NCBI RefSeq assembly: GCF_005049285.1
Contig: NZ_SOSC01000003.1
Span: forward strand, 1 to 64,000
DNA from: Halorientalis salina
GTDB lineage: Archaea; Halobacteriota; Halobacteria; Halobacteriales; Haloarculaceae
Length of the DNA: 64,000 bases
Direction of reading: 5' to 3'
A program made the translations under genes and the position numbers. This document shows, one piece after another, positions 1,788 to 8,165 of this stretch. Each line of letters starts with the position of its first letter. Position 1 is the first letter of the stretch. The notes below the pieces were generated by a model. It searched no databases. It was not told where the DNA came from and saw only the letters and a list, made by a program, of their open reading frames with translations.

Positions 1788-3260
<1,473 letters not shown>

Positions 3261-5305: not shown

Positions 5306-5581
5306 TCAGTCGTCGCCGAACGTCAGGGACGCCAGGATCAACAGCATCCCACAGGAAACGATGAGGGCCTGGACGAGTGCGGCAGACAGCAGCGACGTAT
5401 CGAAGGCGCGATAGATGAGTCCCTCACAGATAGCGCCGACACCGATGAACACGAACCCGGCCGAGACGTAGAGCATCGGCGGACTGTCGCTGCGGCGGTA
5501 GCCGTGGTACGCCAGTGACGCGATGACCAGGCTCAACACGAGCGTAATCAGTTTGACGAGAAGGATCGGCGGACCGATCAT
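5306..5581 (-). CDS. small membrane protein of the DUF7521 type
   Basis: 91 aa with three predicted membrane segments (about residues 6-24, 38-56, 68-86) and a short acidic tail. It overlaps the preceding winged-helix gene by 4 nt (ATGA), so the two are translated as a coupled pair. In haloarchaea small membrane proteins of this kind are often paired with an HTH regulator. The DUF7521 assignment is from memory of that pattern. No biochemical role is known or visible. Confidence 0.75.
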   Translation of the reverse strand: MIGPPILLVKLITLVLSLVIASLAYHGYRRSDSPPMLYVSAGFVFIGVGAICEGLIYRAFDTSLLSAALVQALIVSCGMLLILASLTFGDD

Positions 5582-5931
5582 GTGGAGTCCCGGAGGTTCG
5601 ACCAGAGTGCGGTGAAGTTGTCGGCGAGGTCGTCCCGTGTCGTGAGCGACAGTTCGAGTTCGCCGTCAGTGATCTCGACGTGTAGCTCTTCGAGTGTCGT
5701 CTCGAACTTGCGGCGGTGGGACCCGTCCGCGTCCACTGTCGAATACTCTTCGAGGAGGTTGTGCTCCTGGAGCGTCGAGACGCGTCGGTAGATCGTCGCG
5801 AGCGACGAGTCGCAGACGTCACTGAGGTCTTTCGCCGTCCGTGGCTGTGTATCGGCTGCGACCAGAATCTGCCGCGAGTAGTCGTCGGCCAGGAGGTCGA
5901 AAATAGTCGTGGCGTCCGCACCCCGTCCCAT
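5578..5931 (-). CDS. winged-helix (ArsR-like) transcriptional regulator
   Basis: About 117 aa. A winged helix spans roughly residues 8-75 (IFDLLADDYSRQILVA, then a recognition-helix part SSLATIYRRVSTLQEHNLL). A basic/acidic wing and a C-terminal region with ELELSLTTRDDLADNFTALW follow. Coupled by a 4-nt overlap to the downstream membrane protein, suggesting it senses or controls a membrane state. The frame is open up to a GTG at 6000. A TATA-like GTATTAAATG on this strand (6021-6030) lies 26 nt from that GTG, so a longer leaderless form is possible. ATG 5931 was preferred because the winged-helix domain starts there. Confidence 0.85.
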   Translation of the reverse strand: MGRGADATTIFDLLADDYSRQILVAADTQPRTAKDLSDVCDSSLATIYRRVSTLQEHNLLEEYSTVDADGSHRRKFETTLEELHVEITDGELELSLTTRDDLADNFTALWSNLRDST

Positions 5932-6081
5932 AGAACCCTCTAGGGGAGTTGCCCTCAAAGGTTCGACGGTTCGTCCCCCGATCCAGGTTGCCGCCGTCAC
6001 GAGTGGCCACCATTATTGTTCATTTAATACAACACTGCAAAGAGCCACCGCGCTTTATTCGACGGGGGTGCTGGTGCAGAT

Positions 6082-6513
6082 ATGGCTCTCTCCCGAAAAC
6101 GGGTCGCCAAGTCGGTCGGCGTCGGCGCTGGCTCGATCGTCCTCTTCGGCGTCGTCACCGGGTTGATTCCGAATCCGCTGTACATCCGCGACGTGCCACG
6201 GACGGCGGTCGACTACCTGTTTCTCGGCCTCACCGCCGGTTTCCTCGCCCTCTATACGTTGCAGCGAACGCCGGGCGGGCACGACGACGGGGCTGCGACG
6301 GCGAGTACCGTCGTCGGCTTTCTCGCGTTCGGCTGTCCGACCTGTAACGCCATCCTACTCGCGCTGTTTAGCAACTCCGCGCTGATGACGTACTTCGATC
6401 CACTCCGCCCCCTGCTAGGCGTGGTAAGCGTCGCACTCTTCGTCCGACTGCTGTACGTGCGCTCCCAGCGCGAGTGCGAGACCTGTGCCGACACCGCGAC
6501 GGCGACCGAGTGA
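6082..6513 (+). CDS. membrane protein with a CPTC motif
   Basis: 143 aa with four predicted membrane segments. The third carries GCPTC (C85-x-x-C88) followed by a hydrophobic stretch LLALF and a proline-containing loop. The C-terminus has a second Cys pair (CETCAD). The same arrangement, GC-x-TC then LxxLF, occurs in the protein at 6865-7413. Such paired cysteines in a membrane helix suggest thiol-disulfide exchange or metal handling. I cannot assign a named family. A TATA-like CTTTATTC (6053-6059) lies 26 nt upstream, so it is probably leaderless. The next gene starts 1 nt after its stop. Confidence 0.82.
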   Translation: MALSRKRVAKSVGVGAGSIVLFGVVTGLIPNPLYIRDVPRTAVDYLFLGLTAGFLALYTLQRTPGGHDDGAATASTVVGFLAFGCPTCNAILLALFSNSALMTYFDPLRPLLGVVSVALFVRLLYVRSQRECETCADTATATE

Positions 6514-6514
6514 A

Positions 6515-6829
6515 ATGACGGGGAACGATTCCACACCGACTGGGGAAGTAACCGAACACGCCGAGACCGACGACGCCGACGATGCGGATACCGGATCGGA
6601 CGGGGCCACTCGCTGGTCGCTGGTCGGTCTCGGTGGGCTGGCGAGCCTCTGTTGTCTCGTCGTGTCACCGGCCGGGGCCGCCGCTGCAGGAGCGACAACC
6701 GCGGGGACGGCGACGGCAGCCGCCGGCGGCGGACTCGTGCGTGTGCTCGTCGCGGCGCTGACGGTCGGCGTCGTCGGCGTGTGGCTCCGGTATCGCGCCG
6801 GGTCGTGTTCGTGCGCCAGTGAGAAATGA
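6515..6829 (+). CDS. small Cys-containing membrane protein (MerT-like CC motif)
   Basis: 104 aa. An acidic, disordered N-terminus (about residues 1-35) precedes two membrane segments. The first contains LASLCCLV followed by an Ala/Gly-rich stretch, and the C-terminus ends with CSCAS. A CC pair in the first membrane helix and a terminal CxC recall small mercury/metal transport proteins such as MerT, but overall similarity is not shown. Its ATG lies 1 nt after the stop of the CPTC protein, so the two form an operon. The frame extends 10 codons upstream inside that gene; the shorter start is chosen. Confidence 0.75.
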   Translation: MTGNDSTPTGEVTEHAETDDADDADTGSDGATRWSLVGLGGLASLCCLVVSPAGAAAAGATTAGTATAAAGGGLVRVLVAALTVGVVGVWLRYRAGSCSCASEK

Positions 6830-6864
6830 GCCCGACCGGTCACTGCGATCCCGGAAGCGGCAAG

Positions 6865-7413
6865 TCACGACGGGTCCGTAGTCGATCCGACCGCGCAGTG
6901 GCGCGGGTCACCGACGCGGGAGAGGTACCCCACGAGGAGGACGAGGCCGGCGAGTCGAAGCAGGTTCCCCTGGAACGGCAACATCGCGAGCGCACCGACG
7001 AATCCGAACAGACCGATCAGACCCGCGCCGCAGGTCGCACAGCCGGACGCGAGGAGTCCAGGGAGCAGCGCCGAGAGGCCGCGAGCGCTGGAGAGCCCGA
7101 CCACGCGGAGCCGCCCGAGGGCGATGGTGAGCGCGACACCGGTCACGGCGGCGTAGACCACAGTCAGTCCCAGCCCGAGCGCCCCGACGGTCTCGTATGT
7201 GTTCGCAGTGAGCGCGAGGACCGCGTCGTCGAGGAAGCCCGGACCAGCACCGAGCATCTGCATCGAGTAGGTCGGGAACGTGCTCAAGATGAGCAAGCAG
7301 TAGGTCGCGACGGCGAAGGCGGCGGTCGCGAGCGTGCGTCGGGTGGACGTGAACGGATACGCGAGCGCCGCGATGAACCGGCCGCCGTGCGTGTCGGGAG
7401 CGGCCCCACTCAT
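6865..7413 (-). CDS. membrane protein with a CATC motif, partner of the DsbA-like gene
   Basis: 182 aa with about five predicted membrane segments. The fourth contains GCATC (C125-x-x-C128) followed by GLIGLFGFVGALAML. This closely parallels the CPTC segment of the protein at 6082-6513. The start ATG overlaps the stop of the upstream DsbA-like gene (ATGA at 7410-7413), so the two are translationally coupled. This suggests that the exported thioredoxin-fold protein and this membrane protein exchange electrons, in the way DsbA and DsbB do, although the fold need not be the same. Function is an inference. Confidence 0.82.
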   Translation of the reverse strand: MSGAAPDTHGGRFIAALAYPFTSTRRTLATAAFAVATYCLLILSTFPTYSMQMLGAGPGFLDDAVLALTANTYETVGALGLGLTVVYAAVTGVALTIALGRLRVVGLSSARGLSALLPGLLASGCATCGAGLIGLFGFVGALAMLPFQGNLLRLAGLVLLVGYLSRVGDPRHCAVGSTTDPS

Positions 7414-8165
7414 GCGTTCTGAATCTTCGAGATGGCCTCGTCGAACTGGTCGTAGGGCTGTGCACCGACGATTTTGCCGGCCTTCTCGGATTCGCGGTTG
7501 AACAGCACGAACGCCGGTGACCCGCGGATGCCAAACTCCTGGGCCGTGGCGACGTCGTCGTCGATGGCCGATTCGATCTCGGCACCGCGGTCGTCCATGC
7601 ACGTCTCGACGGCGTCGGCGTCGACGCCGTCGACGCCCCGCGTGATTTCGAGGAGGTTCTCCCGGGCGAGCCAGCCGGAGTTTTTCTCCCCCTGTTCGTC
7701 GAACAGCTTCGAGTGCCAGGCCCAGTAGCGGCCCGGCCGGTCATCGCGCACCTGCCGCCAGACACACCGGTCCATGACGGCCGCCGTCATCGACCCCTCG
7801 GTGAGATAGGGATACTCGATGAAGACGACGCGGACGTCCCCCGACCGGACGTGCTCGTCGATGAGTTTCGGGAACGCGTTCGCCTCGAAGCGGCGACAGA
7901 ACGGGCACTGGTAATCGCTCCAGTAGTACATATCGATCCCCGCCGACCGGTTCCCCATGATGGGGTGGCCCGAGAGGTCGATCCCGACGGCGGTCGTTTC
8001 CGAACTGCTGTGAAAGGGCAACTCCGCGGATTTCGACGGCGTCGATTCGGCCGACGGCGACGAGTCGAGCCGTGACGCGCCGAAAACGACGCCGCCGCCC
8101 GCGGCGAGGGTTCCGACGCCACCCAGCAGGGCCCTGCGTGTCGTCGGGGAGCCTGGAAAATCCAT
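7410..8165 (-). CDS. exported DsbA-family thioredoxin-fold protein
   Basis: 251 aa. The N-terminus has a twin-arginine (TRRALLGG) followed by a hydrophobic segment, indicating Tat export. A Ser/Pro-rich linker follows, then a DsbA-type thioredoxin fold with active site CPFC (C87-C90) and a cis-proline region GIRGSPAFVLF. Family members form or isomerise disulfides outside the cytoplasm. It is coupled to a membrane protein with its own CxxC motif, and two more Cys-motif membrane proteins lie convergently beyond. A TATA-like box (plus 8188-8194) lies 26 nt from the ATG, so the transcript is probably leaderless. Confidence 0.9.
   Translation of the reverse strand: MDFPGSPTTRRALLGGVGTLAAGGGVVFGASRLDSSPSAESTPSKSAELPFHSSSETTAVGIDLSGHPIMGNRSAGIDMYYWSDYQCPFCRRFEANAFPKLIDEHVRSGDVRVVFIEYPYLTEGSMTAAVMDRCVWRQVRDDRPGRYWAWHSKLFDEQGEKNSGWLARENLLEITRGVDGVDADAVETCMDDRGAEIESAIDDDVATAQEFGIRGSPAFVLFNRESEKAGKIVGAQPYDQFDEAISKIQNA

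Follow-up and report, generated by a model that had tools for sequence, protein, structure and literature searches.

The window analysed here, a stretch of 64,000 nucleotides of Halorientalis salina DNA (contig NZ_SOSC01000003.1, positions 1 to 64,000), carries a six-gene module comprising two membrane proteins with a GCxxC motif (A and B), a small CC protein (S), a DsbA-like protein (D), a helix-turn-helix protein (H) and a DUF7521 protein (U). It is well supported that A, B and D form one functional unit with conserved membrane and cytosolic thiols. As to its function, our tentative preference, held at a little under an even chance, is that A and B form a transmembrane thiol relay of the MerT kind with D as their partner, and with sulfane sulfur as the most likely cargo. 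The relay, with D on the outside, is inferred from the conserved-thiol A-B-D unit taken together with the MerT-like build of A; sulfane sulfur was placed first and copper second because of the frequency of their respective neighbour genes.

A and B were sought by single-sequence searches in 242 haloarchaeal genomes, and the counts are lower bounds. A was found in 66 genomes, B in 62 and both in 49 (Fisher p 1e-24, kinship ignored); among 74 genera, A and B were each present in 37 and together in 30 (p 1.3e-7). Neighbouring A-B pairs, separated by 5 kb or less, numbered 43, of which 35 were tandem (B upstream of A), 6 convergent, as in the window, and 2 divergent, so that the neighbourhood persists while the gene order varies. 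An earlier note on this DNA, made from the sequence alone, had proposed co-occurrence as a check on a shared system, and these counts speak against an independent occurrence of A and B. Furthermore, the distance matrices of A and B proteins were correlated (r 0.85, 34 loci), as were those of B and D (r 0.90, 41 loci), and in neither case did any of 999 permutations reach the observed r. As shared ancestry or joint transfer alone could yield such correlations, they support a travelling unit and not a contact between the proteins.

The sub-structure of the module was counted in the window and in 60 loci fetched from other places. Among the 53 loci with A, B was present in 36, S in 31, and H and U together in 27; because of this last recurrence, H and U were counted as members. 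D lay inside the fetched stretch in 42 of the 44 loci with B and in none of the 17 A loci lacking B. D therefore goes with B, the other half of the module being made up of A, S, H and U. Same-strand pairs often overlapped by 4 nucleotides (D-B in 17/25, B-A in 17/28). In five loci (L096-L100), H, U, A and S stand with SCO1, TlpA and CcdA in the absence of B and D, as if TlpA were standing in for D.

C85 and C88 of A, within the motif [GA]CPxCN, were invariant in 66 of 66 aligned sequences, and C125 and C128 of B (GCxxC) in 37 of 37, so that the pairs from which the earlier note had argued are indeed conserved in homologues. C173 of B was found in at least 90% of the sequences, and D carried CPFC or CPYC in all 41 members. 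In S, the CC was kept in 15/15 sequences and the Cys-rich end was variable. A second pair of A takes one of two forms: a CxxC in the tail (54/66, none of which has a pair in loop 2-3) or a pair in loop 2-3 (11/66, without tail cysteine); the remaining sequence has a single loop cysteine and none in the tail. Bacterial A proteins mostly have one tail cysteine.

The mean number of lysine plus arginine residues in the N-terminus, loop 2-3 and tail of A was 2.2, 2.1 and 2.6, against 2.0 and 1.0 in the outside segments; the bias was clearer for B (3.4, 2.2 and 2.4 inside against 0.8 and 0.0 outside). By the positive-inside rule, these three regions of A and B are predicted to be cytosolic. As loop 2-3 and the tail would both lie inside, the second pair of A would thus shift between two sites on one cytosolic face. 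Sequence comparison gives A and B a common build: the third membrane segment opens with a CxxC, and there follow an outside turn (FDPLRP in A, LPFxGxLLR in B), a last helix and one or two putatively cytosolic thiols. An AlphaFold2 model of A, which is weak, places helices at residues 5-26, 42-61 and 109-129, with a third helix broken at the CPxC (69-83 and 86-96).

To compare the families, profiles were aligned with hhalign. A and B aligned with a probability (Prob) of 92.7 over 132 columns, CPxCN falling on GCxSC and the tail cysteine region on C173; with A reversed or column-shuffled, Prob did not exceed 3.8. On this profile evidence A and B are distant paralogues. The GCxTC motif that the earlier note had seen in two proteins on opposite strands reflects real homology, and both reading frames are confirmed.

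A profile of MerT was built on five plasmid sequences. Against it, Prob was 90.3 for the joint A profile, 93.5 for bacterial A and 69.3 for haloarchaeal A, compared with at most 0.5 for eight other membrane families, 0.7 for DUF7521, 0.2 for reversed A and at most 0.5 for five column shuffles. The alignment matched the CPxCN region of A to the CC region of MerT, and FDPLRP to LEPYRP. Against the other module and neighbour families, A gave Prob values of at most 1.2, except with B and with S (23.1). In addition, 3 of 31 A members matched Pfam MerT (PF02411) at E up to 1 (best 0.024), under the curated cut-off, which is a weak independent trace. The Pfam scan of the window A gave no PF02411 match; no MerT family match was found in its own genome, nor did the control genomes give any. 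B compared directly with MerT gave a Prob of 0.3 and is linked to MerT solely via A, while S gave 25.6 with MerT and 5.8 with one MerF sequence. MerC, MerE and MerF were also tried as relatives of A and rejected (Prob at most 1.1). By these profile comparisons, A is distantly related to MerT, and its MerT-like build is well supported.

MerP has an HMA fold, and D differs from it in its DsbA-like thioredoxin fold; the module nevertheless likewise holds an exported CxxC partner, D. Like A, MerT has a membrane-helix cysteine pair followed by an outside turn with E/D-P-x-R-P, a next helix and then cytosolic cysteine. MerT differs in having CC where A has CPxC, and a third helix that A lacks. S resembles MerF in layout, as a small CC membrane protein with two pairs. 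In the accepted scheme (PMC5715351), mercury passes from Cys33/36 of MerP to Cys24/25 in the first helix of MerT and then to Cys76/82 at the cytosolic face; the latter pair is matched in A by the tail CxxC or, in the smaller group, the loop pair.

D exceeded the curated cut-offs of Thioredoxin_4 and DSBA (PF13462/PF01323; 66 and 41.7 bits). Its closest solved protein is BdbD, and its relatives in the PDB include ScsC-type proteins. It also matched, below cut-off, the NCBIfam model of the Rcas_1661-type thioredoxin-like (seleno)lipoprotein (E 2e-26). The redox membrane protein that usually recurs beside D is the electron donor CcdA, found next to B-D in five loci (L065, L066, L067, L113, L114); in the genome of the window, the CcdA match lies on another contig (C21:127217-127756), unlinked to the module. 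The CcdA label of this neighbour family (c19) initially seemed uncertain for want of a Pfam match at 1e-4; it was retained in view of the Cys-Pro motifs of the family and of annotated CcdA proteins that hit the c19 profile at 2e-7 and 4e-7. A PF02683 search misses several c19 genes. Two kinds of CcdA were seen: a longer one beside B (in the five loci above), and, in L092-L094 and L096, a short one that accompanies SCO1 and TlpA. Since CcdA is its usual redox neighbour, D is probably held reduced, not oxidised.

The arrangement recalls CcdA/DsbD systems, in which an exported thioredoxin-fold protein stands beside a membrane cysteine protein, CcdA itself being present in many module loci and the copper or sulfur context being shared. 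A and B are, however, much smaller and are not CcdA homologues by profile (Prob 0.4 and 0.5). SoxV-SoxW couples a CcdA-type protein to a thioredoxin-fold partner. ScsB-ScsC does the same with a DsbD-type protein (for ScsC, PMC5524982), and no DsbD-type, ScsB-like gene was among the window neighbours scanned.

Family A extends beyond the haloarchaea. A tblastn search with the window A returned 89 plasmid records, including 23 from Rhodococcus and 15 from Streptomyces; among the 40 of these 89 matches that were listed, the protein was a 'hypothetical protein' wherever annotated. The family profile matched the five bacterial records opened first at E values from 6.5e-27 to 1.2e-33 and a Nitriliruptoria genome at 9e-38, and it found matches in 19 of 246 Actinomycetota genomes. 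By these profile matches, A belongs to a newly recognised family common to haloarchaea and soil bacteria. B was found in 0 of the 246, in a search that had no positive control and is thus uninformative.

The bacterial context was examined in 14 opened records and 19 further Actinomycetota loci. A lies next to genes for a D-type protein and CcdA in Arthrobacter (L193), Streptomyces (L196), Rhodococcus PR4 (L289), Pseudonocardia (L290) and Microbacterium (L292), and the D-type partners in these five loci are hits of the haloarchaeal D profile (2e-38 to 5e-25). DsbD and DsbA adjoin A in Azospirillum (L194), Tabrizicola and Gemmobacter (L197, L294) have DsbA no more than 4 kb away, a rhodanese is near A in Rubrobacter (L195), and DsrE, DUF302, TauE, MBL or YeeE occur in several bacterial loci. 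The SUL and CYT modules of an Arthrobacter plasmid keep the same gene company as bacterial A: as described in the 'Sulfur Metabolism' section of PMC6305408, a CsoR-type regulator, rhodaneses, TauE, DUF302 and a sulfur dioxygenase lie near CcdA, DsbA-family and DsrE genes. The section lists two CcdA and names no A-type protein. Compared with the modules as given there, haloarchaea add B, S, H and U.

For the haloarchaeal context, profiles of recurring neighbours were run on the 60 loci and on 40 control regions from the same genomes. The sulfur-type set consisted of TusA, DUF302, DsrE, YeeE, SQR, PDO/rhodanese, DUF1641, CoADR and TauE, where the labels SQR, CoADR and PDO are our own, put on generic Pfam matches. 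At least two such neighbours were present in 22/60 loci against 0/40 controls, and at least one of CcdA, TlpA, SCO1, thioredoxin and thioredoxin reductase in 33/60 against 2/40; thioredoxin genes were near 25 of the loci and one control. YeeE-type genes occurred near 8/60 loci. YeeE/TsuA and SoxT, membrane proteins of sulfur import (PMC11073785, PMC11582611), are alike in proposed role only, and YeeE is unrelated to A by profile (Prob 0.3-0.4).

In the relay that we favour, D, exported by the Tat pathway, would be the thiol partner outside the membrane, in the role that MerP has for MerT. From D, a thiophilic cargo (most likely sulfane sulfur, S0 carried as a persulfide) would move to the membrane cysteines of either B or A, then to the cytosolic cysteines and on to thioredoxin, rhodanese or TusA-type acceptors. 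CcdA, adjacent in many loci, would keep D reduced. S, with its CC and C-terminal cysteine cluster, may serve as an additional carrier; the likely regulator is H, which is divergent from A. The broader proposal, that a cross-domain, often plasmid-borne family related to MerT imports sulfane sulfur and not metal by a route distinct from YeeE/TsuA, is in our view rather doubtful. If true, a DsbA-like carrier, a membrane CxxC, a cytosolic thiol pair and sulfurtransferases would form a sulfur route across the membrane. More generally, the analysis supplies a testable anatomy for two groups of 'hypothetical proteins' from plasmids of haloarchaea and actinobacteria, one of them tied to MerT, and a handle on how sulfane sulfur or soft metals cross the membrane where no importer is known. 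For the relay model, the move of the cytosolic pair of A between tail and loop is a natural experiment.

Several points weigh against the sulfane sulfur relay, whose evidence is sequence comparison and genomic context throughout. The likeness to MerT is remote, lies below the Pfam cut-off and involves five MerT sequences and two helices of each protein; in the weak model, two N-terminal helices of A have no counterpart in MerT, and the third MerT helix is missing from A. The structure prediction proposed in the earlier note was carried out for A and B and gave weak models (mean predicted local distance difference test score, pLDDT, 69 and 73). Foldseek returned no match at E of 0.001 or better for either, an absence that is uninformative, and the best VIA-align hit (Z 5.8, for B) was a designed helical protein, so that neither model found a fold match in the PDB. 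As to the cargo, copper-type genes are enriched as well, at least one of SCO1, multicopper oxidase and DUF2243 being present near 19/60 loci against 0/40 controls; sulfur and copper kinds occur together in 8/60 loci, and 27/60 have neither a pair of sulfur genes nor any copper gene. The enrichment p-values (2e-6 for sulfur, 7e-8 for redox and 2e-5 for copper) are inflated, as the loci share ancestry and the families were picked for recurring in the vicinity of A or B. No diagnostic neighbour was found in the window or at its closest relatives (L061-L064, of which L061 has an M20 peptidase). Among bacteria, the Mycolicibacterium, Thermomicrobium, Sinorhizobium and Streptomyces F2 loci have no such gene set (in the last, a DUF302 gene lies about 3 kb from A), the Rhodococcus oxybenzonivorans locus has a metal P-type ATPase, and only 9 of the 19 Actinomycetota loci had a rhodanese/PDO, D, CcdA or thioredoxin-type match.

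In view of the close pairing of B with D, and of their frequent overlap, a serious rival is a minimal reductant conduit resembling CcdA/DsbD, which would move no cargo and would pass electrons from thioredoxin through the cytosolic cysteines and the membrane CxxC of B (and A) to D and on to extracytoplasmic thiols. A membrane pair and a cytosolic thiol are what it would require, thioredoxin genes are enriched near the loci, and CcdA is missing from the neighbourhood of many loci, that of the window among them. We consider it unlikely, as CcdA already stands beside B-D in the five loci and beside bacterial A-D, where the job would be done twice; in addition, A and B lack profile likeness to CcdA, and B has one cytosolic cysteine only. 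Soft-metal handling, in which a MerT/MerF-like set with an ScsC-like D would carry Cu(I) (most likely) or Hg(II) towards or away from targets in the cytosol or the respiratory chain, appears unlikely as well. It draws on the A-MerT homology, the copper-type neighbours, the SCO1-TlpA-CcdA genes beside H, U, A and S, the ScsC-type relatives of D, and the genes near A in L195, L288, L293 and L295, which encode copper-binding four-helix proteins, a heavy-metal P-type ATPase together with an HMA protein, or DUF305 proteins. It is weakened by the failure to find a MerT family match in the own genome, although the controls gave none either, by sulfur neighbours that are at least equally frequent, and by D, since a DsbA-like protein is not a usual metal chaperone. 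No mer gene (MerP/HMA, MerA, MerR) was recognised among the nine window proteins scanned, MerA not having been searched genome-wide. Of the Mer-like metal-uptake unit that the earlier note had suggested, the MerT-like build of A is supported; metal uptake itself may apply, but no mer gene was recognised among these proteins, and the wider context leans to sulfane sulfur and copper.

The earlier note had also proposed a shared redox relay in which the GCxTC proteins replace DsbB/VKOR as electron acceptors. That the genes form one functional unit is supported by co-occurrence, by adjacency in three orientations, by the 4-nucleotide overlaps and by the distance correlations; the replacement is not supported and was rejected on homology and distribution. 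VKOR and DsbB resemble A and B in role only, as small CxxC membrane proteins serving a DsbA-like protein, with neither profile likeness to VKOR nor a complementary distribution. Against 18 haloarchaeal VKOR sequences, A gave a Prob of 2.4 (at most 2.5 in any comparison) and B 0.2, with aligned columns outside the cysteine motif (DsbB proper was not compared). VKOR was commoner, not missing, in genomes carrying A (23/66 against 18/176 others), and most haloarchaea without VKOR have neither A nor B. An oxidative pathway in which A and B accept the electrons of D is thus very unlikely, even though BdbD is the closest solved relative of D and no VKOR match was found in the own genome, as in 201 of the 242 genomes; the recurring partner is CcdA. 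Hardly credible, lastly, is hitch-hiking of genes with unrelated jobs on plasmids or islands shared with sulfur and metal genes. The patchy distribution (A in 66/242), the many plasmid copies and the 27/60 loci without diagnostic neighbours would fit; adjacency kept over three orientations, the overlaps, the A-B paralogy, the strict B-D pairing and the bacterial A-D-CcdA set would not.

In the window, the gene order is U< H< A> S> B< D<. The coupling of the small CC/CSC protein to A and the overlap of the Tat-exported CPFC protein with B, both described in the earlier note, hold: S starts 1 nucleotide past the A stop, and D overlaps B by 4 nucleotides. A-S and D-B converge with a gap of 35 nucleotides between S and B. 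A codon-model gene caller chose the same four frames exactly, plus the two just upstream. Family scans assigned H to a small helix-turn-helix family and U to DUF7521; A, B and S fall into no family of Pfam or NCBIfam, and PDB profile searches with these three gave no meaningful match. Searches of the open-licence PMC literature turned up no account of A, of B or of the module.

Genes of the module in the window, with their cysteine motifs (residue numbers, followed by window positions)
Gene	Position	Strand	Length (amino acids)	Description	Cysteines
A	6082-6513	+	143	Membrane protein with four transmembrane segments; family not in Pfam/NCBIfam	C85/C88 in GCPTCN, residues 84-89 (6334-6336, 6343-6345), membrane pair; C132-x-x-C135 (6475-6477, 6484-6486), predicted cytosolic-tail pair
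S	6515-6829	+	104	Membrane protein; MerF-like layout	CC, C46/C47, in first transmembrane segment (6650-6655); CSC at 98-100 (C98, C100), near C-terminus
B	6865-7413	-	182	Distant paralogue of A (by profile)	GCATC at 124-128: C125 (7039-7041), C128 (7030-7032), membrane; C173 (6895-6897), C-terminal
D	7410-8165	-	251	RR (Tat-type) signal; Thioredoxin_4/DSBA	CPFC at 87-90: C87 (7905-7907), C90 (7896-7898)
H	5578-5931	-		Small ArsR/HTH_20-type regulator, divergent from A	
U	5306-5581	-		DUF7521 membrane protein; overlaps H by 4 nucleotides	

A is present as a single copy in the genome of the window (G000); two A genes at separate places were seen in genomes G080, G227, G213 and G166. The A subfamily with the loop 2-3 pair (L105, L106, L108-L112) has no B, D, S, H or U nearby, and L108, L109 and L112 have another conserved neighbourhood in common. 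Selenocysteine or other recoding was considered for the TGA codons met in many A matches and was rejected, these being ordinary stops after the terminal CxxC that the match had overrun. At L083:7131-7529, a shortened copy of B, in which both cysteines of GCxxC are replaced by arginines, is apparently decayed and lies beside an intact A.

The window also contains ribosomal RNA (rRNA) genes on the minus strand, namely a 16S gene (1788-3260) and a 23S gene of which the 5' part is included (1-1397); ARAGORN found no transfer RNA in the rRNA spacer or elsewhere in the window. Between H and A (5932-6081), six loci in which H is divergent from A have kept CAAAG and a GGTTC block on the upstream side of H, as well as an AT-rich block upstream of A; these are a possible operator and promoter.

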